Position numbers and translations under genes: made by a program
Part shown: in pieces, positions 10,030 through 37,604 of the stretch
Numbering within the stretch: position 1 is the stretch's first letter
How the letters are laid out: the number at the start of each line of letters is the position of its first letter
Assembly: GCA_038503065.1 (NCBI GenBank)
Contig: JBCAMK010000011.1
Coordinates: 124,001-188,000, forward strand
Reading direction: 5' to 3'
Length of the DNA stretch: 64,000 nt
DNA from: Paragyromitra xinjiangensis
Lineage: Eukaryota > Ascomycota > Pezizomycetes > Pezizales > Discinaceae
Notes under the pieces: generated by a model
Database searches by the model: none
What the model saw: only the letters and a program-made list of their open reading frames with translations
Told to the model about the DNA's origin: nothing

Positions 10030-11330
10030 AATAGAAACTCAAAAATTATCCACCTTCATATCTCCTACTATTAGTGTTGACCTTTATACCCTTTTGGCCC
10101 GCCTTTCTGCCTCTGATTCTGAAGCTAGTGAACAGGAGTTCACCGCTCAAAGAGATAATAAATATGAGATTGGGTTCCAGCATGGCTTGCAAGCCGCTGA
10201 AGCCATGTTTCAGATCACTGTTGCTGATACCCAAGCCACTTTTCAAGCCACAATCCACCAGTTTTGCAAAGAACATAGCCCCAGAGTTATCAAACATGAG
10301 TTTCCGGTAGTCAAAGCTGGGACAATCTTAGCCTCCATTCAAGAAATCCACCAAGCTGATGCCTCAAGCTGTTACACTTATAATTCTACCATGGTTACCC
10401 TACTTTGGTTACCCTACCTTCCAGTTACCCTGCCTTAGCTTCCAAACCTAAATACTACCATTACACATCCCTTTGCCATAACCACAATCAAACAAGCAAA
10501 CTTATGGATCAACCAAGCCTAGGCAATGACTCTTAAACATCCTAAACACACCTCTACTTAGTTCTATGGCCAGTGGTTAGCCCCACTACTACTGTAAGGC
10601 ACTTGTATGGCATCCGGAGTGGAGAAGGGGGGACATGGGCCAAAAAGACACGTCTCGGAGACTAAAAGTAACCCCTGGGTGATGAACAGTGCCCTTCCAG
10701 TGGAATGCAACCCGGAGGGTATATGGAGGGCCTACTTCCATCTCCAAGTGGTCCCAATCAATTTGGATTGCTATCGAAAGAGTTATCATAAGTCATGCCT
10801 GGACATTTGGGGATGTGGTAGTATAGGTATTGGTCAAACAGAGAAGTCATACATAGCTAGTAAGATCTTGCGTAAGCAGAAAGCCACAAAGTGAAGGGTG
10901 CAGGATATAAATACTCTATCACGATCATGTTTTTTAGTTCTTCAAGCAACAGAGGCAGGACCTTACAATTATCAAATTTTACAATGTTATATACTATTCT
11001 TCATCAATCAAGACTCATTCTATTACATCTACGTTCTCTTCTATTGGGGCTATTGCTCATATTCTTTCTGGTGAAAGCTGTTTCTCTGAGTCCTTCATTG
11101 TTTCAAAATGAGTCTTTGATCCACCTCTTCGGCTGACCCCCAAAGGCTTGCTGAACGGTCATTAAATGTGCCAGTAGGCATAAGGAGTTCCTTGGGTTAA
11201 CACAAGCGATGCCAAGCAATCCAATACTGAAAGATATACCTCTTTTGGTGAAAGCTCAAGCCACGCCAAGCTGCACTAAGAAAGACCGCCCAAGGTTACT
11301 AGTACTGGTGGTAAGAGTAAAGTAGCACCA
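10030..11330 (+). pseudogene. Gag-like ORF fragment interrupted by a solo LTR
   Basis: From about 10030 an open frame reads through ISVDLYTLLARLSASDSEAS and GFQHGLQAAEAMFQ to 10369. It resumes in frame after the 833-bp LTR as SDAKQSNTERYTSFGESSSH (11208 onward). A TAA follows near 11278, where CAA would keep the frame, and then GGKSKVAPKW. The sequence is hydrophilic and helical like a retrotransposon gag N-terminus, but no zinc knuckle remains. It could alternatively be a host gene fragment. Confidence 0.5.
10370..11202 (+). repeat. Solo LTR, 833 bp, TSD CAAGC
   Basis: Starts TGTTACACTTATAA and ends GGGTTAACA, with CAAGC at 10365-10369 and 11203-11207. It is closely similar along its length to the LTR at 34892-35715. 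Apparent ORFs inside are LTR shadows. Confidence 0.9.
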
Positions 11331-12960: not shown

Positions 12961-13338
12961 AAAGAAAGCGATGGATAGTCACGTGCGAAGTCACGTGTAT
13001 AGAGGGTTAGGGGTATTGATAGCAGAGGATTTCTGTTGCTGTTCAGCATTTCCTGTCGATTCGTTATCCTATTCACTATTCAATTCTTTCCTATCTACCT
13101 ATCTATTTGTATTGTATTCCTTTGCGATGGGTGTTTTGCCTTGCCTAATTCGTTATTGAATATATCCTTTCTATTCACATGCCTATTTGCTTAACTTCAC
13201 GCCTAATAATTCACATATATTTGCCTCACTATAGGACATCAAAGTCTGCGTTGACACAGTCTCTTCTTCACAGTGGGAAGGCAGCGAATATCAGATCTCT
13301 GCATCGAACTGGCAGGGTCTCCTACACACTCACCCACA
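12961..13338 (+). repeat. LTR relic of the 23.4-36.8 kb gypsy family
   Basis: Matches the reverse complement of the gypsy LTRs over about 375 bp, lacking the first about 25 bp. Changes are mainly C to T and G to A. For example, the LTR palindrome GCGTCGACGC reads GCGTTGACAC here. It ends at CACCCACA (13338), directly against pogo transposase sequence. Confidence 0.8.
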
Positions 13339-14049
13339 ACGTCATATGTCCTTTAGCCATTAGATGTGGGCGTCTCCTCTCCTTTAAAGAGATACTATAC
13401 TCAGGAAGTCAGCAAATTGTGCATCCCCGTAGATAAGAATAATTTTCCAAATCTACTTGCACGTGCACGTAGAAAGGCTTTTACCACTCGAAACATTGAG
13501 TCTGCGTTTCGCGCTACCGGAATTTGGCCATACAATCCATTGGTAATTCTTCAAAATCTTGTGCTTCCTGAGCCCTCTCTTCCCCCATCGGAACCCTCTC
13601 CTCCTAACCCTCCTCACTTGGATTCTCCCTATGATCTCCTCACTTACAGACCTAAAACCACGACCACACCTCGCTCAATTCACAACTTGTATGTGGAGGG
13701 TTTGGGTACTATCACTTCCAACAGCCCTCGCTCAATTAAACAGCGTGCTGTATTCACTAAGCTTAAAATGAGTGCCGAGAAATCCGCTGCCAGAGTGGTC
13801 ATGCACAAAGCTGGAGAGGCATACTTGCGCGAAGAAATCAAAAACAGGAGTCACAGGTATTTTTCTTTCCTTTACAGCTGGGCTCGGAGTTCTCACATCA
13901 TTGTCAAGGTTAGGGCCGATACCCGAAGAATTAATTCAGATTCAGCATGCGTCCTTGAGAGGGGAACGGTTTTAGCAGAGTTGAAAAGGAAAAGAGACGA
14001 GACTGAGGCTCAAAAAGCCTCCAAAAAGCGAAAGAATGCCTCTTCGTAG
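13339..14049 (+). pseudogene. pogo/Fot1-type transposase, C-terminal part
   Basis: The frame opens right after the LTR relic with SYVL, TAG, PLDVGVSSPLKRYYTQEV. It then has FPNLLARARRKAFTTRNIES and AFRATGIWPYNP, the conserved end of the DDE region of pogo/Fot1 transposases. The TAG at 13354 replaces an expected CAG (Gln of the LQPLDVG motif). A Pro-rich linker and a basic tail (SKKRKN) follow, to the stop at 14047. The N-terminal HTH and the first catalytic residues are missing, so the LTR relic lies at a truncation or insertion junction. The tail of about 180 codons is otherwise open. Confidence 0.8.
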
Positions 14050-21327: not shown

Positions 21328-23073
21328 CATCAGTAAAAATTGATAAAGCCGCCCCGGCCACCTGGAGGTCTAGGCGGTCGGGCGGAATGTTACCCTTCTG
21401 TTAGGTTGCTGCAGCACCTCGGCGCGCCTGGGAGGCATGGTTTCTAGACCTTTGACCGCCCGGAGGAGGTCGTTTCCTCCTGTAGCAAGTGGTGTAGTGG
21501 GCTGCTTCTGGGCGTGGGTGGTCCCTCGCTGCCGCAGAATTTGGCAGCAGTTCGCCCTGTAGAATGGATTTGCACAGTATGCTTGTAGGGCCTAGAATAT
21601 TCGAGAATCACTTGTATGGAACCAATATCATTGACAATTGCTTTATTCTATGTATCTATCTATATATCTATGTACAAATATCGAGGGCGCAGCTAAACTA
21701 GTTTCTGTGGAAGCTGCAGCAGCGAATCGACAACCTGCCAGAGGCAGGCAGCGAATTGACCATATGGCGCAGGCAGCAGAAGCTCAGGCAGCGAATTGAC
21801 CATATGGCGCAGGCAGCAGAAGCTCAGGCAGCGAATCGACCTATTGGCGCAGGCGCAGGAAGCTCAGGCAGCGAATTGACCATATGGCGCAGGCAGCGGA
21901 AGCTCAGGCAGCGAATCGACCTATTGGCGCAGGCGCAGGAAGCTCAGGCAGCGAATCAACCTATTGGCGCAGGCGCAGGAAGCTCAGGCAGCGAATTGAC
22001 CATGTGGCGGAAGCGGCGGAAGCGGCGGAAGCTGCAGCAGCAAATAGACCATGTGGCGGAGGCGGCGGAAGCTCAGGCAGCGAATTGACCTATTGGCGCA
22101 GGCGCAGGCTCAGGCTCAGGCTCAGGCTCAGGCAGCGAATTGACCATATGGCGCAGGCGCAGGCAGCGCAGGCAGCGAATCGACCTATTGGCGCAGGCGC
22201 AGGCGGCGGAAGCTCAGGCAGCGAATCGACCTATTGGCGCAGGCTCAGGCTCAGGCTCAGGCAGCGAATTGACCATTTGGCGGAGGCGGAGGAAGCTCGG
22301 GCAGCGGATCGACGACCTCCAGGAGGCGGCGGAAGCTCAGGAAGCGAATCGACCATATGGCGGAGGCGGAGGAAGCTTAGGCAGCAGATCGACGACCTCC
22401 AGGAGGCAGCGGAAGCTCAGGCAGCGGATCGATCAGCCAATTGAGCCGCCTCCTGAGCTCGCTTAGGCGGAAGCAGCGAAGCAGGCAGCCAGCGGAGGCG
22501 GAGGAAGCTGAAGCAGCGGATCAAAGCGAGTCTAGGAGACATATCAGCGGGAGTCAAATAAACGGAATCAAGACGTTACCTAGGAGGTTCTTTGCAAGCA
22601 GAGCTTAGTACTTCGGGCCTAAAAGTCACGATGTCAGCAAAGTACTATGGTACAGCGAGGTGGGGAATGGAGGGAATAGGGGGAGGTATGGGAGGAGAGA
22701 CGGGAAGGAATAGGGGGAGGTGGAGATTGCTGTCTTACTAGGCGTTGCTTTGGCGACGACAAAGTGATGACTAAGTGACCACAGAGTGATGACTAAGCGA
22801 CCTCCAGATTTTTCAAAATCGCTAAGTGCCTGGGAGGCGAGTGAATTTTGCTAAGTCCCAGGCTTTTAGGGACTTAGAAAAAATTCGATCGAAAATTTGC
22901 AAAGTGCTCAAGCTGCCACCCAGCGCTGTCGGATGATGGGAGGTCGCCCGGGAAGCGCTACAGGTACCAAGCGGCGCCAGGGGGAAGCACAGCTTGCAGC
23001 TAGTTTCGCCTGGGCGCGGCAGGCGGTCGGGCGGAATATGTACCTATTGGGCGCAATTTTTTTTTTACTGATG
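21328..23073. repeat. Composite repeat: CATCAG ends, 40-bp minisatellite, about 620-bp tail
   Basis: Begins CATCAGTAAAAATTGATAAA and ends TTTTTTTTTTACTGATG. Between about 21710 and 22450 lies a minisatellite with a 40-bp unit (GACCATATGGCGCAGGCAGC followed by AGAAGCTCAGGCAGCGAATT), including hexamer expansions of CAGGCT. The tail (about 22450-23073) recurs at 36830-37437. The motif AGGCGGTCGGGCGGAA occurs near both ends (21372, 23021). Because 40 is not a multiple of three, the array keeps all plus frames open; the long Ala/Glu or Gly/Ser ORFs here are artefacts. Confidence 0.75.
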
Positions 23074-23421
23074 GACCATATGGCAGAAGCTGCAGCAGCT
23101 GCAGCAGCGAATAGACCATGTGGCGGAGGCGGCGGAAGCTCAGGCAGCGAATTGACCAATTGGCGGAGGCTGCGGAGGCTGCTGCAGCAAATCGATCAAT
23201 TGACTGAGGCGGCAGAAGCTTAGGCAGCGAATCGACCATATGGCGGAGGAAGCTCAGGCAGCGGAGGCTCAGGAAGCGAATCGACCATATGGCGGAGGCG
23301 GAGGAAGCTTAGGCAGCAGATCGACGACCTCCAGGAGGCGGCGGAAGCTCAGGCAGCGGAGGTTGCTGCAGCGAATCGATCAATTGACTGAGGCAGCGAA
23401 TCGACCATGTGGCGGAGGCGG
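23074..23421. repeat. Second minisatellite block, cut by the gypsy element
   Basis: Same 40-bp unit family as 21710-22450, with GCTGCAGCAG expansions. It stops at the gypsy LTR and continues on the far side at 36809, so the retroelement landed in this block. Confidence 0.8.
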
Positions 23422-23818
23422 TGTGGGCGAGTGCGTAGGAGACTCTGCCAGTTTGATGCAGAGATCTGATATTCGCTGCCTTCGCGCTGTGAAGAAGAGA
23501 CTGCGTCGACGCGGACTTCGATGTCCTATAGCGAGGCACATATATGCGGATTATTAGGCGTGGAATTGAGCGAATAGGAAGGATATATTCGATACGAATA
23601 AGGCAAGGCAAAAGCCCGCCACAAAGGAATACGATACAAAAATAGATAGGTAGGTAGATAGATAGGAAAGAAATAGAGTAGTGAAAAGGATAAGAATCGA
23701 CAGGCAATGTTGAACAGTAATAGAAATCCTCCGCTGTCAATACCCCTAACCCTTATACACGTGACCGCGCATGTGACTTATCCATCGCTTCCTTCCACCT
23801 CCCGCGCACCCCACCACA
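23422..23818 (-). repeat. 3' LTR of the gypsy element (397 bp)
   Basis: On the minus strand it starts TGTGGTGGGG and ends GCCCACA. It contains one copy of the palindrome core GCGTCGACGC (23503-23512). Confidence 0.95.
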
Positions 23819-23997: not shown

Positions 23998-26900
23998 TCA
24001 CTTCCTCCGTCGCTTCTTCTTCCCTTCCGACGACGAGGAAAGTTTCCGCTTAGCAGGAGACTGCGTCGACGCAGGCTCTGCTAACTCGCGAGTCTCCGGA
24101 GGAGGCATATCCTCATTAGCAGCAGGCAGGGCAACGTCAGCAGCAGACGAATCCTTAGCAGCAACAGCAGCTGCGGCAGCGACATCAACAGGCGGATCCT
24201 CCAATTCCTTCCCCGAATCCTCCAATTCGGGCTCTATTTCCTTCTCCACCTCTAATTCCTCCCTAATAGGAGATACCACTTCCTCTTCCGACTCCACCTC
24301 CACTTCCGACTCCTTCCTAATAGGAGAGCCTAATTCCACCTCCGAATCCTCCACCTCCGACTCCACATCCGAACCAAATCCTGTCAGCGAATAGCCTCCA
24401 CGCAGCAACGATGTTACACCTACGAACTGACTAACTAATAGTTCACCGATACGGCTGGTTGTCAACCAGGCTGATTTAGGTTACATGCATGCGCTTACGA
24501 TATATTCTTCTCATTGATAAAGCATGCACCTCGCCTCATTCTTATCTATGGTCGGGGAACGTCGGGAGTATATTTCTTTGGTGTGGCATAATGTTTTCAG
24601 GGTCAAAAGGATTTCCACTTATGTTTTCTGTTTGGAATCGCATAACATAACTTCTGTATATATAGGAGGGGCTGCCCCCCTCCTCTCACTTCTTTCATCA
24701 TCACGACTGGAAGAAGAATCTTAACAATATCATTGTTCTATAAACTCTATCGTTACGCGGACCCTAAATTCCTATTCTAAATACTTGGGTCCTGCCAGGG
24801 TATCGTACCCTTTCAAGACCACTTCATTATTAGTCTTGCTATATTCGAACGGACTGTTCTTCTACCGTCTACCTATTCTTTGCCCTCAGGTTAAGTCTTA
24901 GGTGAAACGTCTCGCTTCGGTTGATATTCCTCTACCTAGCTCGCTAGTCAATAGTGCTGTTAGGATAGTGACGATAAAGCTTAGGCGAGGCACTAACCTA
25001 CGGTCGCATCCTGCCAGCTGACAAACGACTCCTTGCCTTCCTTGGTAATTCGCATTGGAGGCTCCCAAGTGCCCGTATCTCTGGCGTGGAAATAGGAATT
25101 CGGGCCGAAATCTCGCCTCTCCGCCCACTCCTGGACCTTATACCCCTCCCACATAGCCTCCATCAACTTCCTCCGCACCTTTCTCACCAATTTCCACGCC
25201 TTCCGCTCATCTGCCCCCAGCAAGATCTCCAACTCCCAACGCACACGAGCAGACTCCCAATCCACCAATCCCAGCAGCGCATCTCCGATTCCCCACACAC
25301 CTCGGACCTCTGGCGTACTCGCAAAGCGTGCTTTAGGGCGGCTATGGGCGTTAATTTGCCCAGTAGGATTCCGTGGCAGCACGGTCAGCGAACGATGTGC
25401 TTCGGCGATATCAGCACGTGAGCCCATCTCCAGGAATTCCATGGCTTCTCCGTCTCCCTGGATGGCTGTGGGCCAATTATTCACCGTTCTTCGCTGCAGA
25501 ATTGCCTTATCCTTGGCGCCAGCAGTTGCCCCGTGAATTAGATGCGGCAGCGTAATTCGGAGATCTCCAGGCGCACAGACGATATTCGTTTCCTTGCCAA
25601 ACGAAGCTTCATCCTCCTGCAGATACGTTTTAGTGGTTCGGAAAGAGTTGCCGTCTTTGGCATCTCCACGCGCTTCCACACGAGCCCACCAATCCCCGAG
25701 GTGATTCTGGAAGCCTTCAACGACTGCGGTACAGCCTTCCGGGATCTCCTGATCCAGCGAGAGTGAGGTCTGGATGTGATTCACTCCCACGCCCGTATCT
25801 AGAGCCTTCCGAGGATTCAGATCTATATGGCGGAATTGCGTATAATCTCCAGGCAACGAAAACTTGGCATAGTGAGGAAATGCCAGCATACGATAGGCGC
25901 GGTCCGACCTCGCAGCCAACACCAAAACGTAATACACGGGGTCTTGCCTAATTGCCTGCTGTAATACGGAGTGATAGCAATTCCGCAGCCAGCCCGTTGA
26001 ATCACTCCGTTGATGGTGGAGATATAGGTCGAATTCCTCCGAGATCTTAGCCCAAAGCTCCGTTTCCTCCGTCAACCACCTAAACGCCGGAACCACACAA
26101 TTGCCTTTCTCCAGAAACGCATCCCAAGCCTCCTGACTGCCAAAGCGCGCAAAGATTTCCCCTCTATCAAACTGCGGAAGTTCCCACGGAATTGGCTTCC
26201 ACAGCAAAGATCCCAAATCGTCCGCCTCCACTCTAGCCCTCGCTCCTTTCCTAAACCAGCCATAAGTCGCTGCGGCAGCGTGAAGATTCCCTATTGAATC
26301 CCACTGCCTGTGGATGTGCTGCAGGCGCAGCGTCATCTCCGCGCGGTTCAGGCGCTTGACATACAGGCCAACGTACGATGCCAGCCGCTGTAAGTGCTCC
26401 CAGCACAGATTATCAAGCCCTGCCTCCACGCCATCCAGTAGATATTTGCCCTGCGAGGCAAGCGGTACCACCTCTGCACTTCGATATTTGCGCAGATTAG
26501 AAACCCATGCCTTGGAGAGATATTCTCCACAACCACATGCTTCGGACTTATGGATATCCTCCTCCTCTTCCGTTTCCACACCTTTCTGCACCTCTTCCGC
26601 CTCTTCTTCCGCCACTTCCTTCCCCTTTCCTTTTTCCAGTTGGCGCTGCGCTTGCGCCTCCACAGCCTTACCAACCACCTCATCCTCCTCCGGCACCAAG
26701 TGAGGAGTCTGCGTCGACGCGGAGTCCTGATCTTCCGCCCCACTCTCCACTTCCTCCACTACTCTCTCCAGCGACTTCCCCTTCTTAGCAGCCTTTGGCT
26801 TAATCTGCTTCGGCCTAACTTCCACAGGCCACGCCAACACCAAATCCTCATCCCGAACCTCCTCTTTCATTTCCTTCCCCTCTCCTGCCTTCGTTAACCA

Positions 26901-27635
26901 TTCCTTGGCATATGCCACATCTTTAGGCATGAATACCAAGGCTTTCTGTTGGCCGGAGGTTCGATCCTGCAGGCGCATTCGATAGCCTGCATCCAGCGCC
27001 TTCCAGGCTTGGCTCATTGACCACCCATCTCGAGCAATTGCCGCTAATTGACGTAGGAAATGCTTTGAGAATTGGCGCAGGCGGTACTCTTGTGGATCGA
27101 ACTCCTCCTCCCATTGGTCGCCCCACTTCTCACAAATCAACTTCCTCGCCCTCTCCTTCCTGCCATCTGTGGCTCTATAACGCTCTTGCGCCGGCGCAAT
27201 CACATTATCATAGTCCATCATAGCCCTAAACGCCGCTTCTCCACCAAACTGATCCCATAGCCCCTCTTTCTCCACATAATCGGCCCAAATCCGCGAGATT
27301 CCCTCATCTGATACCTCCTGCGCCTCTGCAAACACCTCCAGGACATCCTTAGCAACGGCGGCTCGAGATACGGGATCTTTGTGCGCTGCCATGGTCTTCT
27401 CGATTAGACTGCGCAGGCCATGTTTGGCGCGCTGCTGCAATACGCTTTCTCTCGTGATTTCGACGATTTCGTTGGTGCCCGTATGGCCTGAGGTTTTCGG
27501 CGCTCTGTGTACCATTTTCTTGACCGTACTTGGCGACAGCGACTCTGACTTGCTGCTTCTCGTTTTTCTGCCTTCTGGAGTGCTGGGGCCAGCCGGCTCA
27601 TTTATGGGAGTGAACATGGCGCGCTGCTGTTTCAT
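23998..27635 (-). pseudogene. Gypsy ORF3: 2OG-Fe(II) oxygenase-like protein (about 1,006 codons), interrupted by a solo LTR
   Basis: The frame runs from ATG 27635 to 25029 and resumes in the same frame at 24411 after removal of a 612-bp LTR plus one AACGA, ending at 23998. The N-terminal third is helical (SRAAVAKDVLEVFAEAQEVS, EYRLRQFSKHFLRQLAAIAR). An acidic linker follows, then a domain with FRHIDLNP (HxD, about residues 603-605), DQEIPEGCTAVVEGFQNHLG, and GDLRITLPHLIHGATAG (distal His about 701) with RR about 14 residues later. That HxD...H...R order is the iron and 2-oxoglutarate binding signature of the double-stranded beta-helix dioxygenases. The C terminus is acidic, then basic (AKRKLSSSSEGKKKRRRK), which looks like a nuclear localisation signal. 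Apart from the LTR insertion the frame is open. A role in DNA or protein modification for the element is inference. Confidence 0.7.
24412..25023 (+). repeat. Solo LTR nested in gypsy ORF3, TSD AACGA
   Basis: Starts TGTTACACCTACG and ends CCAGCTGACA. AACGA stands at 24407-24411 and 25024-25028. It has a TATA-like TGTATATATAGG near 24655. Excision with one duplication rejoins ORF3 exactly in frame. Confidence 0.9.
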
Positions 27636-28302
27636 GATGACGTAGTAAAGCAAACAAAGAAATGGTGCCCAACTTGAAAGCACTGATATCTATGCGTCGA
27701 GGGTCAACTTGATATCGAGGGTCAGCTTGATAGCGAAGGAATCAAACTGATTGCGGAGAGTTCGATGAGATCCTTCCTTTAGGCGAGAGATGTAAGGGAT
27801 TAGTCCTAGGAAGCAGGTTTGCTTCCCCCTCCCCTCCTAATAAAGAAGAGGTCATGGCGTTTCTGATACCTCTGCGTCATAGCCCTAAGCCCTATCCCGC
27901 CGGCGATTCCCGCAGAGCCCCAACCTTAATTCGACTTCCACCACCTCTTCCACTGAAACATAGGAAAATACACTAAATCCGCCAAATACAGGTACAAAAA
28001 TAGGAAAAATACAGCTAATAGAAACATAGAATTCCGAAGGAATTAAACAGGAATTGACTGAGGAATATACGAAGGAATAGACGACTAGATACGAAGGAAA
28101 TACAGGCAAATAGAGACGAATCAACTGACGAATTGACCAGGAGTATACGAAAGAAACGACGAATAGTAGACCAAGGAATACATGAAGGGAATACAGGTAA
28201 ATAGATACGAAAGAAACGATGAGTAATAGACGAAGGAAACGACGAATAAGAGCCAAAGAAACGGTACAAAGGAAGCTCGTAAGGGACCCCCTTTTAGTGG
28301 TA
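27636..28302 (-). promoter_or_regulatory. Spacer between integrase and ORF3, possible ORF3 promoter
   Basis: Noncoding about 670 bp. On the coding strand it is very pyrimidine-rich, with repeated TCGTCGTTTC and CGTATCTATTTACCTGTATT-like units at 27990-28260 and a TCGAGGGTCARCTTGATA duplication at 27696-27735. Pyrimidine-rich tracts before an ATG resemble fungal promoters, so ORF3 may have its own transcript. This is inferred from composition only. Confidence 0.35.
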
Positions 28303-29748
28303 TTAAGGCAACTGCACGTAGAAGCCCCAGTCTTTCTTAGGCTTCACACGCTTACCATCAACCACAGAAACATCCTCTTCCTCTATTTCCATATCTTCTT
28401 CTACTTCCGCCTCTTCTTCCGCCTCCTCCTGCGGTTCCCGCGTCAATGCGGACACTTCCGCGTCCTTCTCTCCTAATTCTTCAGCGGATTCCTCTGCGAC
28501 TTCCCCTGCGCGTTGAAAGAAGCGTTTAACACGATCTGGAGGCGTAGTACCGCCTAAAAGCGTGCCATCAAGCTCCTCCAAAACCACAGTGCCTACAGGA
28601 GATATTTCCCGAATTCGAAAGGGCCCACACCATCTATTCGCCAGCTTATCACTCCACTGCTTTTCCAGCTTCGTATTATGGAGAAGCACGAGATCTCCAA
28701 CACTTAAAGTCTGTGAATTAGGCCGTCTTCTCCTGTGGGAGTCGAAATACCGCTTATTCTCCGACCTGCTTTCTCTCAGCCGAATTGCTGCTTCCTCAAT
28801 ATCCTCGTCTCGCATCTCCAATTGCCTGGCCCGAGCTGCCAATAAATCCGCCCTAGAGTGGATATCCTGCCACTCAATACTGCCCCACGAACTCAAGGTT
28901 ATTTCCACTGGAAGCACACACTGCCAACCAAAAACGAGCTCAAAAGGCGCCTTTCCTGTGGACCTTCTGACCGTAATTCGATCAGCCCAAAGGACGGAGT
29001 GGAGATGATTAGGCCAATCCTTCAGCTGTTTGGAGATCTTCTGCAAAGCATCCACTATTTGCTGATGCCCACGCTCGACCAGTCCATTTGCCTGCGGATG
29101 ATATGCGGAAACGACCTTCCTGTTGATATTGTATCGATTGCACAGGCGCTCTGTAAAGGCTTTATTCTCCGGTCCTCCGTCCACCACAATCTTCCTAGGG
29201 CAGCCAAATCGAGAAATCACCTCCTGGAATAGGAAATCCGCCACTTTCTCCGAGCTTCCTCTAGTTAACGCACGCCCTTCAGCCCAGCCTGAGAAATCAT
29301 CTCTAGCAAGAACTAGATACCGATTTCGATCACTTCCAGCAGGCATATGCACGGTATCTACACAGACCTTCTCGAATAGCGAAGTGCCAAATGTAGGATG
29401 TAATTCGTCGGGGTATCTGGCCGAAGCTCGAAGTTGGCATTGCTCGCACGTGCGAACTAATTCCTCCACATCCTTGGCTAATCCACGCCACCAGAAACGC
29501 TGAGATATCTTCTTAAACGTGCCTTCTCTGCCTCTATGCCCTGAGTCGTCATGGAGATCCTTCAGAATCTGCTGCTTTTCTGGTCCATTGCATATCACTC
29601 GCTTCGGCGGCTGGTTCTCACGACCTCTCCGGAATAGATGCCCGTCTCGAATTAGGAATTTGGTTGCTTCTTGTCTAAACGCCTTTCGCTGCTTCTCCGA
29701 GAGGTCTTCTGACATAGTTAGAGATTCCAGGAATTCACCAATTTGCTG
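28303..29748 (-). pseudogene. Gypsy integrase domain of pol
   Basis: Same frame as RT/RNase H but separated from it by a TAG at 29751-29749; the frame reopens at once and the first Met codon is at 29715. Counted from that Met there is an HHCC zinc site (H55, H60, C90, C93), then D120, D179 and E214 (VCVDTVH, VVDGGPENK, GLVERGHQ) with the canonical 35-residue gap. A GPY/F-type tail (LANRWCGPFRIREI) and a long acidic C terminus follow. No chromodomain was recognised. The domain itself looks intact; the TAG fits a lost CAG. Product: integrates element cDNA in the nucleus. Confidence 0.9.
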
Positions 29749-31809
29749 CTAACGACCATTATACTCTCCTTTGGCTAAGCATACAAAAGGATTAATAGGA
29801 CCTCGCGTCGACGCGGACTCTCCTGCGGTTACCCGGCTGGCGAATAGTTGATCATCGAGGAATTCCTCTAATTCCTCCACATCTTCCACCTCTGCTTCCG
29901 CTACATCCTCTTCAGTCCCCTTACGCCTCGATAATCCATCTGCTGCAGTATGCTGCTTTCCTGGAACGTGGACCACGTCGAAATCGAAGAGACGAATCCA
30001 CGCAATCCAACGAGTGACCATTGCGCCTGGAAGATCATTAGCAGGGAGATTCAATTGGTGAACCAGCGTTCGAGCGTCGATTTCCACACGGAATCTAACT
30101 CCATAGAGCCAAAAGCGCATCTTCTTCAGCACCTTGAGCAGTCCTTTGCACTCTTTCTTCCCCGCGTCATACTGCCTCTCTGCAGGCGCCCACAACCCGC
30201 TCTCATACCTGCAAGGATGCCTTATATCTCCTAATAATTGCATTAAAACGGCACCCCAACCTTCTCCTCCGGCATCCACCCCTGAAATCAGCAGGCCTGC
30301 CAACGGACCATATTGTGGCGTAGCCAGCGCTGGCGCAGTAGTAAGTGCCTTTTTGATCGTTTCCATTGCTTCTTCCTGCTCTTCTGCCCATACGAAAACC
30401 ACACCTTTTCGCTGTAGGAAGAATAACGGCGCTGCGATAATTGCAAATCCTTCGATCCAAATTCTATAATAGGTGGCAACTCCTAGAAAGGCTCGGACTT
30501 CCGTAACTGAATCGCAGGCAGGCCAAAGTACGATCTTTTCCACTTTCTTTGCATCAGGAAATCGCCCTTCTTCCGTACAAACGAATCCCACGATCTTGAT
30601 TCCAGGCTTGCACCAAGAAGACTTAATTCCCGCCACTGTGGCACCTGCCCTTTCGTAATCTGCTAGGACTCAGTCCAAATTGACGATATCCTCTTGTACG
30701 AATCTTCGAATTCCAGGGCTTATTTCCTCATCATCATACCGCGAAGTTGGCCCTTTTACGCCCACGTCATCTAGAAAGACTCTGCAGCGCTCCGGGATAT
30801 TATCATGCTGCGCTTTGGAGTTGATTCGCTGAAATGCCTGTACTGAATTCGTGCCTCCTTGCACCATTCGAGTATACCGAAGCAGGCCTAAAGGGGTCTG
30901 AATAGCAGTCATATCTCTGCTTTCCTCCGCTAAATCCACCTGATCATAGCCGGAGAATAGATCAATAATTGAAGCTATTGCCATTCCAGCGAATTCTTCG
31001 CTGAATTCGTCAACTCTAGGGGGTAATGCCACGTCTAATATCATATGGCTGTTGGCTTTGGTGAAGGAGGCGACTAATCGATGCCCGCCCTGCTTTTTCT
31101 TTACTAGAAACCAAGGATTTCGATACGGTCCACGGCAGCGCTCCAGAGTGCCTCCTGCCATCCGCGCCTTTAGGATTTCAATAACCTCCCCTTCTAGGGC
31201 TCTGGGTGTCTTGAAGGGAGCTTCCTGCCAGGGCACGTGTGGAATCGTCCGAATTACGTGTGGAGGCTCAACTTCCGACTTGAATAAGCCAATTTCTGTG
31301 AATTCGAATGCTACAGCAGCCTCCCTATTGTATAGCATTTCCATCAAAAGCTCTCGTTCCTTTGGCTGAAGATGCCCTATATCCATTTCCGCTATTCTTT
31401 CTTTCGTGAGACGAGATCCTCGTGGAACACTGCTGAATTTGGGTGTAAGGATATGATCAAAAGGGCCAACGGGCTTATCCAGCCCTCGCCTCTTTTCTTC
31501 CTTCAGGCAATCCTGCTTCCAATTCGGATTTCCTTCTGCAGCGCCGCCATCACCTTTGACGTTCTGCGGTCGCACCTTCTCCTTCTTATTCTTATACAGC
31601 CTCCTGCTGCTTACTCCACTTCCCGCTCGCTGAATTTCATTCCATACTGTCAAACACCGCCGCATCCGCACCTCTCTTTCCGCACCTCGCAAGACTCCGC
31701 GTCGACGCGGAGTCTCCTGCGCTCTTCGGACCACACCCCTCACTTCCGCCACTTCCACCACTTCCGCCACTTCCTCCGGAGGTTTCCGCCGCCTCTTCTC
31801 AGTAAGCAC
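29749..31809 (-). pseudogene. Gypsy reverse transcriptase and RNase H
   Basis: RT motifs include RNPWFLVKKKQGGHRLVASF, IIDLFSGYDQVDL and the catalytic VFLDDVGVKGP (FxDD form). Then come the thumb and connection (VRAFLGVATYYRIWI) and RNase H (SGVDAGGEGWGAVL, AERQYDAGKKECKGLLKVL, VEIDARTLVHQLN). A TGA at 30672-30670 splits the frame after IVNLD, where CGA (Arg) suits the family. The frame lies in -1 relation to the protease frame, with overlap near 31818, consistent with -1 ribosomal frameshifting or an indel. The N-terminal linker contains a perfect palindrome around GCGTCGACGC read in a different frame from its other copies. Confidence 0.9.
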
Positions 31810-31817
31810 CTCCGCGC

Positions 31818-33491
31818 TTACTGAGATCTCCCATTTCCCGAGCTCTGCTCACGCCTCCTTCGCATCCACTGCCCCTTTGCTTCCCGTACTGAAGTGCGCG
31901 CATATCCTTCAGGCGGAACTGCCATAAATTTGGCTTTCTTTAGGCGATCAGAGGACCAAATCGTGCCCCACATTGAGCCATCGTCCTTATTCGTCCACTT
32001 TAGTAAGGCAGCTCGCTCGAATGGGCGCCCTAATACGAATTCGCCTTCCATTCCTGGAGATGCGAATATTGGTGTATAAACCACGGCACCTCCTACACTA
32101 ACGGGCGCTTCGTGAATACAGCAGGTCAGAGGTGTGGAGTCTCCAGTAATTCCGGTCATGGTCCAGTCCACCTGGTCGTCGTATGGCAAATTCAAACTCT
32201 CGAATTCCGACCAACCCATTCGATTGATTTCCGATCCATTATCTCCCGTTGGCTGCAGCAAAACGCCGTTGATACTGATGGGAATTAGGCCTGATTCAGC
32301 AGCGTACTCGACCTGATGTCTAATTCTCCGAGTCTGGGAATCGCGTGGAGATGCCTGCGCTTTGGAAACCTTCGCAGCTGGCGGCACGCCTCTGCCGTAT
32401 AAATATTTCTTGAAGGGAGGAGAAATAGAGACTAATTCCGAAATGCTGATATTGATCGACTTTTCTGTTGCTAGTCTGTGGAAAAGCTCTTCTTCGGAGG
32501 GGGCGCCTATGGCATCATCTCTAAGGGCTCTGCGTGGCGCAACTGTAAGACCGGTACTTCGCACCACTATTGAATTCTAAGCGAAGCTTTAGATAGCTCT
32601 CTAGACTCTGTAACTCGACCGGCTACTATCCGTAGCACAATACCCGAGCGCACGTCCTGACAACTTCTTATGAACCGCACAAAGGCAACGATAGTTTAAG
32701 CGAGATAAGGGTCGGGGCTGTTCCGTTGAAAGAACTTTCTCAATAGGAAGGACACGAGTGTTGAAGCGCGAAGCTATGCTAAACGACTCGATACGATGGA
32801 GAATTTATCCTGGAACAAAGTATGTTGGTAACAAAATAATATTGATAAGGCTCGTTCTTCCTCGATGATGATCGACTCAGAATTGACGTCCAATGCAAGA
32901 GTATTTATATCCCGTCCTCTTTACTACTGTGTGTTCTTTGTAGCTTGGGTCGACGGACTAAACTATCTACTATTACAAATTGAACTAACTCGCTTATCCC
33001 TTTATCCAACATCCTATCGGCGAAGCCGATATCTCCAACTTCCGACGCTTACCCCTCGTTCAGTAATCCTCAGATCGCCTCGGTTCGACGTGGCGATGAT
33101 ACGGTTGCGACGGTTGCGTTCGCCCGATCGAGTAGGTGGTTACACGATATCGTTTTGTTGCAACAGCTGGTGTTTGGAGCCCCGTAGCACGGGCAGGAGA
33201 CCTCTGATGACTAATCCGAATAGCCCACGTGACTCGGCGCCCCAAGTTGCCCTATGAAGACGGGAAGGTGACCAAATGGAAGGTAGGGTAACTCCCTACG
33301 TAGGTAGGGTAACAGGGAGACCACTGCACGCCTATAGCCATAGGTATAACAGCAACGACCTTCTTTTCAGGCTTATTCGTGGGCTTATTCGTAGGCTTAT
33401 CTTCCTGCATCTCCACTTCCACAGTCTCTACAGGAGGATATGCTCTAGGCCTGGGCGCCCGAGCATTTGGCAACCCTTCCTGCCTCTCAAT
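31818..33491 (-). pseudogene. Gypsy protease region, interrupted by a solo LTR
   Basis: Continues the gag frame past the TGA at 33494-33492: a linker (PRPRAYPPVETVEVEMQ, NKPTNKPEKKVV) up to 33352, then, after the LTR at 32544-33351, APRRALRDDAIGAPSEEELF and a retropepsin-like core. The active-site loop reads LQPTGDNGSEINRM, with DNG in place of the usual D(S/T)G. It ends at TAA 31820-31818, overlapping the RT frame. The apparent Met codon at 32567 lies inside the LTR and is not the start. The protease would cut gag-pol precursors. Confidence 0.75.
32544..33351 (+). repeat. Solo LTR nested at the gag-protease junction, TSD GCAAC
   Basis: Starts TGTAAGACCGGTACTTC and ends GGTATAACA. GCAAC stands at 32539-32543 and 33352-33356. 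It has a TATA-like AGTATTTATATCC near 32905. Excision with one duplication makes gag and protease one uninterrupted frame across the site. Confidence 0.9.
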
Positions 33492-35859
33492 TCACTTCCT
33501 GAGATCTTCCACCTTTTCCTTCTTTGCTGGCGCCCTGCGCTTTTCCACACGCGCCGGTTTGACTGCAGAAATATACCAATTCGCCTCTTCTTCCTCTGAT
33601 TCCGAATCCGACTCCAATTCCGACTCCAACTCTTCCTCCACTAACTCTTCCTCGCTGCTTTCTTCGTCTAATTCCCCTAAACGCGCCATTCTGACCTCGA
33701 AGCTCAGTCCACGGCTAGGGCTAGGCGCAGCTTTGATTCGCCTTACGCATGGCTGTTGCAACGGCTGCGGAGGTTGCTGCTGCTCTCGGGCTTCCACTTG
33801 CTGCAGCATATTCCTGCCCGTACTTCTCTCCCACGGCTCTACCACATCTCCTCCGGATCCTTCTCCTCCCCAGTGAATCCTTCCACCTACAGCCCTATGC
33901 ACTAATCCTGCGCGCTCTTTAGTCATCAACGCAGGGCATTGATTCTTCAAATGCGTGGGATCCGCACAAAAGATGCAACGCCTTGCCGGAGCGTACTGAA
34001 GATTTGGAGCATACTGTTGAGCCGGCTGCGAACTCCGAAGCGGAATTGCATTTGCTCCCGAAGCAGGCCCTGGCGCGTTGTAGGCTTGCGGCGGAGGTGC
34101 TCTGGCGCCGACGTTGGCTCTGCTAAAACTCTCCATAAATTGCGCCTGTTGGTGTAAAACCATGGCTTCCATACGCTTCGAAATGTCATCGATTGCGTTT
34201 GTGACATCTATATTGTGGGCCTGGCGTTGAATTGGCTGCACAACCTGTGCAGTCTGCTGCGGCTGCGGCTGCGAGTCTCCGAAACTGGCTGATACTGAAA
34301 GCTTCGGCTTCGTTTCCTGCGCTAAAAGCTGATCAATAAGTGCTTCTGAAGAAAACTCACCTTTCTTCATCAATTCTTCTGTGCGAAGCGTGCCTAAGCA
34401 GTAATCCTGAGCTTCTTTCTTAATTAGGGCATATTTGCCTTGGAAGGAGCTGGGCAAGTTGACGTCCAATTTGAACTTGATAATCAACTTCCTAGCGAGG
34501 TCTAATTGCAGTCCTCCTAGAAACAGTTGAATCTCCTGATATTCCGAAAGCATACCTGTGGCTTTTAGGCTGGTAGAAACTGCCGTAAAAGTGCGCACGA
34601 AAGGGCGTATATCACCTGTTTTCTTCTTCTGCGCAGTAGTCAGCTCTTCCAGAAACCTTACCGTATACATCTGCTGCTTCGTATCCTGCGCTCTATACTC
34701 CTCCAAAATCTCCCTGCGCAACGCCTGCCAGTCTCCATCTGCATATCCTTGCAAATAACGAATCGTGGCGCCAATAGAGCTAACACAATAGAGAGGGAGC
34801 TTCTTCACAGCCGCCTTCTCCGATTCTCCGAATTCTTCATATAGAAGCTCATAGTGCTCTAGGAAATCTGTAGCGTCGTTTCCATCGAAATTGTTACACT
34901 TATAAATCCACTATGGTTACCCTACCTTCCAGTTACCCTGCCTTAGCTTCCAAACCTAAAATACTACAATTACGCAACCCTTTGCCATAACCACAACCAA
35001 ACGAGCAAGCTTATGGATTAACCAAGCCTAGAGAATGGCCCTCGAACATCCTAAGCATGCCTCTACTAAGTTCTATGGCCAGTGGTTAGCCCCACAACTG
35101 CTGTAGGGCGTTTGTATGGCGTCCGGAGTGGAGAAGGGGGGACATGGGCCAAAAAGACACGTCCCGGAGACTAAAAGTAACCCCCGGGTCGTGAACGGTG
35201 CCCTTCCAGTGGAATGCAACCCGGAGGGTATATGAAGGGCCTACTTCCATCTCCAAGTGGTCCCAATCAATTTGGATCACTATCGGAAGAGTTATCACAA
35301 GTCATGCCTGGACCTCCGGGGAAGCGGTAGTAAAGGTATTAGTCAGACAGAGAAGTCATACATAGTTAGTAAGATCTTGCGTAAGCAGAAGGCTGCGAAG
35401 TGAAGGGCGCAGGATATAAATGCTCTATCACGATCATGTTCTTTAGTCCAAAAAGCAACGGAGGCAGGACCTTACAATTATTGATTGTTGATTGTCAATT
35501 ATCATACTATTATTTATTGATCAAGACTCATTCTATTATATCTACATCCTATTCTATTGGGGCTATCGCCCCTATTCTTTCCAGTGAAAGCTGTTTCTCA
35601 GAGTCCTTCGTCGCTTCAAAACGAGTCCTTGATCCACTTCTTCGGCTGACCCCCAAAGGCCCGCTGAACGGTCATTATATGTGCCTGTAGACATAGGGAG
35701 TTCCCCGGGTTAACAGAAATGCGGGGCACCGTGGGTTCCAGGAAAGGGCATATGCGTCAATTGCTTCCGAAGGCCTTCGATAAGCAAGTCTGCAGAGCCA
35801 GCAGTAAGTGGCGTGCCTGCCGTTGGCGTGGAATTGACTGTGGAGCGTGGAGTCGACAT
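33492..35859 (-). pseudogene. Gypsy gag, interrupted by a solo LTR
   Basis: Probable ATG at 35859 (MSTPRSTVNS); the frame is open further upstream into the leader. It runs to 35716, then resumes at 34886 in the same frame once the LTR and one GAAAT are removed, giving about 512 codons to a TGA at 33494-33492. The core has YELLYEEFGESEKAAVKKLP, a retrotransposon capsid-type region. A CCHC knuckle (CIFCADPTHLKNQC) follows Pro/Gln-rich sequence, and the C terminus is acidic then basic. The TGA fits a lost CGA because the frame continues into the protease linker. Product: forms the virus-like particle and binds RNA. Confidence 0.85.
34892..35715 (+). repeat. Solo LTR nested in gag, TSD GAAAT
   Basis: Starts TGTTACACTTATAAATCC and ends GGGTTAACA. 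GAAAT stands at 34887-34891 and 35716-35720. Same family as the solo LTR at 10370-11202. Excision restores the gag frame. Confidence 0.95.
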
Positions 35860-36411: not shown

Positions 36412-36808
36412 TGTGGGCAAGTGCGTAGGAGACTCTGCCAGTTTGAGGCAGAGATCTGATATTCGCTGCCTTCGCGCTGTGAAGAAGAGACTGCGTCGAC
36501 GCGGACTTCGATGTCCTATAGCGAGGCACATATATGCGGATTATTAGGCGTGGAATCGAGCGAATAGGAAGGATATATTCGATACGAATAAGGCAAGGCA
36601 AAAGCCCGCCACAAAGGAATACGATACAAAAATAGATAGGTAGGTAAATAGATAGGAAAGAAATAGAGTAGTGAATAGGATAAGAATCGACAGGCAATGT
36701 TGAACAGTAATAGAAATCCTCCGCTGTCAATACCCCTAACTCTTATACACGTGACCGCGCACGTGACTTATCCATCGCTTCCTTCCACCTCCCGCGCGCC
36801 CCACCACA
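36412..36808 (-). repeat. 5' LTR of the gypsy element (397 bp)
   Basis: Same ends as the 3' LTR, with eight differences. It contains the palindrome core at 36493-36502. About 2% divergence implies a relatively recent insertion; no dating is attempted. Confidence 0.95.
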
Positions 36809-37437
36809 GCGGCGGAAGCTCAGGCAGCGAATTGAGCTGCTTGCTGAGCTCGCTTAGGCGGAAGCAAGCAGCCAGCGGAGGCGGAGGAAGCTGAAGCAGC
36901 GGATCAAAGCGAGTCTAGGAGACATATCAGCGTCAATCATATAAACGGAAGCGAGACGTTACCTAGGAGGTTCTTTGCAGGCAGAGCTTAGTACTTCTAG
37001 CCTAAAAGTCACGATGTTAGCAAAGTACTATGGTACAGCGAGGTAGGGAATGGGTGGGAGGGAATAGGGGGAAGCAATAGTAGGAAGGACGGGAGGGAAT
37101 AGGGGGAGGTGGAGATTGGTGTCTTACTAGGCATTGCTTTGGCGACGACTAAGCGACCTCCAGATTTTTGAAAATCGCTAAGTGCCAGTGCCTGGCAGGA
37201 GACGAAGTGAATTTTGCTAAGTCCCGAGTTTTCAGGGACTTAGCAAAATTTGATTGAAAATTTGCTAAGTACTCAGGCTGCCGCCCAGCGCTGCCGGATG
37301 GTAGGGGGTCGCCCGGAAGCGCTGCAGGCAGCAAGCGGCGCCAGGGGGAAGCGCAGCAGGCAGCAAGTGTCACCCAGGTGCGCCAGGCGGTCGGGCGGAA
37401 TATGTACTTATTGGGCGGAATTTTTTTTTTACTGATG
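36809..37437. repeat. Right half of the split satellite unit with tail
   Basis: Starts GCGGCGGAAGCTCAGGCAGC, then follows 22450-23073 closely (GAGCTCGCTTAGGCGGAAGC, GTTACCTAGGAGGTTCTTTG) to TTTTTTTTACTGATG. Together with 23074-23421 it forms one satellite-plus-tail unit interrupted by the gypsy element. Confidence 0.8.
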
Positions 37438-37604
37438 GGGATGCGTTTGATGAATCCTCCACTGGGGCAGGTGGGGATGATGCAGCGATGGGCGGATGGG
37501 GGATGAGGGCCCGCACAGATTGAGCAAGTGGCAGAGGATTGGCCAATGCCTTTGTTCTTAACTTCTGTGCAGCGGATGTCTGAGTGGCCAAATTTCTGGC
37601 AGAA
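37438..37604 (-). pseudogene. LINE (Tad-like) gag zinc-knuckle scrap
   Basis: The minus strand reads FCQKFGHSDIRC, then SATCSICAGPHPPSAHRC and IIPTCPSGG. The spaced cysteine/histidine knuckles are characteristic of ORF1 of fungal non-LTR retrotransposons. The piece is cut on both sides exactly at CATCAG-type termini, and the first Cys of the first knuckle is lost. Confidence 0.65.

Follow-up and report, generated by a model that had tools for sequence, protein, structure and literature searches.

The window analysed here is a stretch of 64,000 nucleotides of Paragyromitra xinjiangensis DNA (contig JBCAMK010000011.1, positions 124,001 to 188,000), one part of a genome of 48.2 Mb in 22 contigs. 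Its minus strand carries a Ty3/gypsy retrotransposon, whose long terminal repeats (LTRs) at 36412-36808 and 23422-23818 are 98% identical. Between the integrase and the 3' LTR lies a third open reading frame (ORF), termed ORF3. An earlier note, made from the letters of this DNA alone, had placed it there with an ATG at 27635 and had proposed an oxygenase function. Position, start and strand were confirmed. The features of the element are the following.

36412..36808, minus strand: 5' LTR, 397 bp, TG...CA; 98% identity to 23422-23818, flanking CCGC duplication
33492..34808, minus strand: gag fragment with CCHC-like knuckle, interrupted; ORF, Retrotrans_gag E 0.06, below the cut-off
31818..32567, minus strand: protease region; ORF, Asp_protease_2 E 0.18, below the cut-off
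30670..31809, minus strand: reverse transcriptase part of pol; RVT_1 7e-9
29749..30636, minus strand: RNase H part of pol; RT_RNaseH_2 5e-18
28303..29715, minus strand: integrase; Integrase_H2C2 6e-20, rve 2e-9
24993..27635, minus strand: main part of ORF3, 880 amino acids (aa); ATG 27635, final codons running into the insert
24412..25023, minus strand: solo-LTR-like insert of 612 bp interrupting ORF3; TG...CA, TCGTT target duplication
23998..24411, minus strand: 3' part of ORF3, with an acidic, low-complexity region and a basic tail resembling a nuclear localization signal (NLS); ORF, translation
23422..23818, minus strand: 3' LTR; polypurine tract AGGAGGGGAGGA just before it

The matches to RVT_1, RT_RNaseH_2, Integrase_H2C2 and rve passed the Pfam cut-off and stood in this sequence, which is the gene order of Ty3/gypsy elements. 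The integrase of the window gave no match to Chromo at E values up to 1, and the element was not placed in the chromovirus branch. The gag translation contains what we take to be a CCHC-like knuckle, and in some other copies gag and the protease region form a single ORF. The copy in the window is damaged. Its pol is divided by two stops, and two stretches of about 0.8 kb in its gag-protease region, 34892-35715 and 32544-33351, are inserts relative to another copy; less interrupted copies are about 11 kb long. The insert at 34892-35715 is similar to positions 10402-11202 of the window at 88%.

The ORF3 frame runs from 27635 to 24993 and then, beyond the insert, from 24465 to 23998. The insert is flanked by the 5-bp duplication TCGTT and has five further matches in the genome, two of them full length at 96%. 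Its earlier description as a nested LTR was fair.

ORF3 as a gene of the element

A six-frame search of the genome with ORF3 gave at least 54 matches. All copy counts are lower bounds, and the integrase search scored the best 90 of 172 candidates. At each of the 19 family integrase loci among the matches listed, ORF3 adjoined the integrase. Eight further loci were fetched with flanks reaching both ends of the element and gave, together with the window, nine full copies. In all nine, ORF3 was located between the integrase and the 3' LTR, a pair of LTRs was present, and a polypurine tract preceded the 3' LTR. The paired LTRs were 96.9-100% identical (100% in three copies). Perfect 4-bp target duplications flanked seven copies; an eighth had an imperfect duplication, and that of the ninth was not determined. 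The family has been active recently.

Seven of the fetched copies had an uninterrupted ORF3 of 991-1021 codons with the common start MKQQRAMF; that of the eighth had one in-frame stop. In the window and in seven copies the ATG was located 0.6-0.8 kb past the integrase stop. Since ORF3 adjoins the integrase at the listed loci, is intact in seven copies and is under purifying selection, as described below, it is a gene of the element that is kept by selection. A search of the genome for further complete ORF3 families gave only the family described here.

The location after the integrase would suit an env-like gene. However, hydropathy showed no transmembrane-like stretch in the eight proteins inspected, the highest mean over 19 residues being 0.81-1.02, and ORF3 has a basic tail and extended charged regions of low complexity. 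An env-like identity is therefore extremely improbable.

The polypurine-like sequence AGGAGGGGAGG occurs on the minus strand of the window at 27838, 23971 and 23831. All nine copies had such a tract before ORF3 and another at the 3' LTR, and eight had one after ORF3; the tracts bracketing ORF3 may be a trace of its acquisition. Five of the nine copies have GTCGACGCAG in each LTR and at two places in ORF3, and the other four have three occurrences each; it is possibly a cis-acting or shared repeat. The element may be primed by a tRNA or prime itself; for the putative primer site, no complement beyond an 8-mer was found in the one copy examined.

Selection on ORF3

The proportions of nonsynonymous (pN) and synonymous (pS) differences were calculated pairwise over 865 codons of eight ORF3 sequences; as the copies are related, the pairs are not independent. 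The mean pS was 0.204 and the mean pN 0.018, giving a ratio of 0.09. Single pairs had ratios of 0.06-0.13, and the closest pair of copies, which showed few differences, had a ratio of 0.53. Constraint was strictest in the N-terminal domain (0.05), the mid domain (0.06) and the core (0.05). Ratios of 0.11 after the core, 0.21 in the first 55 residues and 0.26 in the linker were obtained elsewhere. The other genes of the element gave 0.05 for pol (one pair), 0.03-0.08 for integrase (six pairs) and 0.10-0.13 for gag-protease (three pairs). The ORF3 protein is thus constrained about as tightly as the products of the other genes.

Repeat-induced point mutation was also considered for this family, as the earlier note had presumed a genome that mutates its repeats, and was rejected. 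The sum of C>T and G>A changes did not exceed that of the reverse changes in any of 11 copies (four intact, seven damaged) compared with one reference, so that the presumption found no support in the ORF3 element family.

Domains and homologues of the ORF3 protein

The ORF3 protein consists of a helical N-terminal domain (about residues 56-275), a variable linker, a conserved mid domain (373-475), an oxygenase-like core (476-720) and a further conserved region (721-865). The residues that resemble an oxygenase signature are RHIDLN (H603/D605), GDLRITLPHLIHGA (H698/H701) and R715/R716. The basic, NLS-like tail AKRKL...KKKRRRKRMNW, which had been pointed out before, was present in all seven uninterrupted copies.

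Conservation of these residues was surveyed at 24 loci, of which three (L023, L037 and L038) had no core match. Among the remaining 21, the HxD motif was readable in 18, once as HTD; L026, L033 and L035 had mixed reading frames at this site and were counted neither as kept nor as lost. The distal His motif was found in all 21 loci and the Arg pair in 20, one copy lacking one Arg. The HxD, distal His and Arg pair named in the earlier note are present in ORF3 and kept in nearly all readable copies of this genome.

Two homologues from outside this genome turned up in a large protein collection; by estimate, this search needed several shared 5-residue words and mostly missed relatives well under 40% identity. 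The protein of Maublancomyces gigas (Pezizales) has 847 aa and is 46% identical to ORF3, and that of Arthrobotrys flagrans (Orbiliales) has 961 aa and 29% identity over the C-terminal half. Other ascomycetes may have similar sequences as well, whereas no relatives were found in the viral and prokaryote contigs scanned. When the A. flagrans protein was compared with ORF3, none of 500 shuffles scored as high for the mid, core and following regions each. Its similarity to the N-terminal domain was weak (6/500 shuffles as high; 174/500 when compared with M. gigas). The N-terminal domain of M. gigas was clearly related to that of ORF3 (0/500). The mid domain was not detectable in M. gigas, with 115/500 shuffles as high against A. 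flagrans and 97/500 against ORF3.

The A. flagrans protein retains RHLD, PHLPHG and RRT. The M. gigas protein has kept PHLVHG and RRT, and RHID is replaced by RQIN (QxN), which counts against an oxygenase function. The earlier note had regarded loss of the HxD and the distal His in related copies as decisive against its proposal; M. gigas shows part of this loss, but A. flagrans has kept HxD. ORF3 could accordingly be a protein with an oxygenase-like fold and a non-catalytic binding or structural role, in which the metal site is dispensable. The loss of HxD in a 46% identical protein that retains the distal His motif and RRT fits such a role, as does a helical N-terminal domain that is constrained equally to the core. 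However, HxD was kept wherever it was readable in this genome and also in the more distant A. flagrans. Moreover, since the mid domain, which is common to the other two proteins, is undetectable in M. gigas, the M. gigas protein may be relaxed in general. We consider a non-catalytic role unlikely.

A 310-aa open frame outside the element copies, at G000 C9:2004181-2005110, matched the N-terminal domain of ORF3. With the 270 aa tested, 0/500 shuffles scored as high against ORF3, 0/500 against M. gigas and 370/500 against A. flagrans. Apart from one 29-residue match, this gene is single-copy in the genome outside the element copies. In the region C9:2004181-2006426 (L047-L049), the N-terminal-type domain is followed by an extended acidic stretch and then by a possible mid-domain segment; the latter is suggestive only, with 19 and 23 of 1000 shuffles as high and an alignment to A. 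flagrans that was off the expected register. The tail of this region compared with the ORF3 core region gave 10/1000 shuffles as high. No oxygenase core was found in the 2.6 kb following the frame, and the N-terminal piece had no Pfam match. The C9 gene may belong to the host and be akin to the sequence from which ORF3 obtained its N-terminal part; alternatively, it may be a domesticated derivative or have been left behind by some other element. At G000 C8:1640517-1640846 there is a further sequence that resembles the N-terminal part of the A. flagrans protein, but weakly (E 0.09).

Evidence on a probable oxygenase domain

Profile searches of the kind suggested in the earlier note gave a sub-threshold match. 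At a loose threshold, PhyH (PF05721) was the best of 24,736 Pfam models for the trimmed core of the A. flagrans protein (E 0.023, 15.4 bits), and this match spans HxD through the distal His. The gathering cut-off of PhyH is 22 bits, which neither ORF3 nor the two homologues reached. The features of the ORF3 core follow a PhyH-like order, in which HxD comes first, GC and GF within an acidic stretch next, and GD with the distal His last; the spacing of oxygenase motifs drawn on here is general knowledge. A stricter PhyH-like pattern occurred in 17 of 2000 shuffles of ORF3 and 56 of 2000 shuffles of the A. flagrans protein, the pattern having been written after the sequences had been viewed.

The core was also compared with six PhyH sequences by local profile comparison (hhalign). 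A profile of three core sequences scored 23.6; column shuffles had a mean of 13.1 and a maximum of 26.1, and 1 of 400 was as high. Controls scored 12.1 (reversed core), 11.4 (integrase), 14.6 (gag) and 8.5 (N-terminus of ORF3). The A. flagrans core alone scored 27.2, with 0/400 shuffles as high. PhyH and Tet_JBP are fold relatives, and since these scored just 15.1 against each other with the same small sets, hhalign is insensitive with sets of this size.

Several results weigh against the assignment. A loose pattern, HxD-(40-120)-H-(8-18)-R/K, occurred in 1232 of 2000 shuffles of ORF3 (62%) and in 1750 of 2000 shuffles of the A. flagrans protein; the HxD...H...R motif by itself proves nothing. 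Neither Pfam nor NCBIfam gave a match over the cut-off with ORF3, nor did Pfam with the M. gigas and A. flagrans proteins (NCBIfam was applied to ORF3 only). PhyH was not listed up to E 1 for the full-length proteins, that of A. flagrans included, and the trimmed cores of the window and of M. gigas had no Pfam match. As PhyH was picked for hhalign after the Pfam match, the two results are not independent. The cores of the window and of M. gigas alone scored 16.7 and 15.3 against PhyH, near the shuffle level, and the stretch aligned by hhalign was the GC...GD...H part, with HxD outside. The best match of the 3-sequence profile in the PDB was the ankyrin protein p16INK4A (E 0.0087), aligned over the part of the core in which the distal His lies; it was judged to be a chance match, although it is nominally at least as strong as that to PhyH. 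Two AlphaFold2 models based on very shallow alignments were mostly helical, with mean predicted local distance difference test scores (pLDDT) of 39.1 and 36.9, and no beta-helix was shown. A PDB sequence search with ORF3 gave bacterial ThsA as its best match (E 0.33), which was likewise judged to be due to chance.

These findings would agree with a fungus-specific element protein that is not an oxygenase, has an unknown fold and carries the motif by coincidence: the loose motif is common in shuffles, no database cut-off was passed, the top PDB match of the profile was an ankyrin protein, and the models were helical at very low confidence. However, no shuffle reached the similarity of the A. 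flagrans core to PhyH, and HxD has been kept across two fungal classes. We consider a coincidental motif about as unlikely as a non-catalytic role. The weak PhyH match fits the signature proposed in the earlier note, but the motif alone remains at chance level. Judged from these sequence comparisons, the assignment of ORF3 to the oxygenases is probable, not proven, and an oxygenase fold is likely.

The earlier note had further suggested an enzyme of the TET/JBP or AlkB type. An AlkB-like (PF13532) identity was rejected, as no 2OG-FeII_Oxy_2 match was found in ORF3 or in the M. gigas and A. flagrans proteins. A TET/JBP-type 5-methylcytosine oxygenase, as occurs in fungal DNA transposons, could have been captured by the retrotransposon. 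According to a 2025 survey, Pezizomycete DNA transposons carry TET/JBP genes (PMC12730594), and Tet_JBP matches exist in this genome. However, Tet_JBP (PF12851) was unmatched in ORF3 and in both homologues, and the Pezizomycete transposon type has HxE where ORF3 has HxD. The core scored 18.5 against three host Tet_JBP fragments, and 200 shuffles reached 25.8; these were three of five fragments, L041, which nearly duplicates L040, and L042, from a different family, having been left out. By every test made, ORF3 did not appear to be of the TET/JBP type, and we regard such an origin as very unlikely.

On G000 C6, C15, C1, C12 and others, the genome contains eight Tet_JBP matches, two of them over the cut-off, and seven matches to 2OG-FeII_Oxy_6, five of them over the cut-off. 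By eye, five host oxygenase pieces were unlike ORF3.

Proposed role of ORF3

On balance, ORF3 is an accessory gene of this recently active fungal Ty3/gypsy family. Its product is most likely nuclear and most likely combines a helical N-terminal domain and a basic tail with a divergent oxygenase domain that depends on Fe(II) and 2-oxoglutarate and has a PhyH-like sequence syntax. Its nuclear location, catalysis, substrate and benefit to the element are inferred. With a distance of 0.6-0.8 kb between the integrase stop and its start, ORF3 probably needs its own transcript or splicing and would be expressed apart from gag-pol. The basic tail suggests nuclear entry and may carry the protein into the nucleus, where the helical part could bind to chromatin or to nucleic acid of the element. 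The presumed oxygenase part might then oxidise a chemical group, such as methyl, on a nucleic acid or a protein, and this oxidation could relieve silencing or help replication. Escape from repeat-induced mutation found no support as a role; relief of some other silencing is our guess.

A more far-reaching proposal is rather doubtful. It states that the accessory protein was built by joining a regulatory-type domain of chromosomal origin to an oxygenase of a new 2-oxoglutarate-Fe(II) family, which has relatives among the genes of two Pezizomycotina classes. The protein would remove or alter a silencing mark on the RNA, DNA or chromatin of the element and would thus be a counter-silencing enzyme of a retroelement, independent of TET/JBP and AlkB.

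Relation to known elements

Capture of ORFs downstream of pol is already known from LTR elements (PMC6431247, PMC5408684), and complex fungal elements with inserted domains are mentioned in PMC3248453. In the open-licence literature, including the accessible text of PMC3248453 and PMC6338049, no fungal retrotransposon with an oxygenase was found. The view that an oxygenase as a third ORF is not a standard architecture therefore holds for fungi as far as found. It does not hold for Ty3/gypsy elements in general, as those of Phalaenopsis orchids carry an ORF for an AlkB demethylase of N6-methyladenosine (PMC9289625), which is a published precedent for an oxygenase ORF in such elements. Both are Ty3/gypsy elements with a separate extra ORF and a 2-oxoglutarate-Fe(II) oxygenase domain, which for ORF3 is likely. 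The orchid elements are 25 kb long, reside in a plant host and show clear similarity to AlkB (PF13532) and activity in vitro, whereas the ORF3 element is fungal, is about 11 kb long in less interrupted copies, has PhyH-like syntax with no Pfam family passing, and is known from sequence alone.

The fungal TET/JBP transposons comprise PU, AG and PE types among DNA transposons and Helitrons, the PE type having HxE (PMC12730594). Like the ORF3 element, they are fungal mobile elements with an accessory gene, for a 2-oxoglutarate oxygenase in their case and probably in that of ORF3, and are found in Pezizomycetes too; unlike them, ORF3 belongs to a retrotransposon and is not Tet_JBP by profile. The same survey states that it found no retrotransposon with a TET/JBP gene, and it discusses reasons for this. 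The LTR retrotransposons of bdelloid rotifers also carry an ORF3, a third ORF that is enzymatic and non-envelope; it encodes a GDSL esterase or a DEDDy exonuclease and no oxygenase, and the host is an animal (PMC5408684). The PhyH family (PF05721, e.g., human PHYHD1) has the same order of motifs as the ORF3 core in the host and PDB members compared, the acidic stretch having GC and GF/GS-H, but the similarity is below the threshold and ORF3 has large extra domains.

If the oxygenase assignment is true, fungal retroelements, too, would carry mark-editing enzymes, with a selected oxygenase other than TET/JBP. Fungi would then offer a parallel, in a second kingdom, to AlkB in the orchid elements, and there would be a new enzyme family the substrate of which would be directly findable.

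Other repeats in the window

A piece of an LTR of the element, 83% identical and in opposite orientation, was located at 12962-13341. A degenerate array with units of about 40 bp extends over 21745-23419 and abuts the 3' LTR. The sequence at 22434-23074 recurs past the 5' LTR at 36825-37438.

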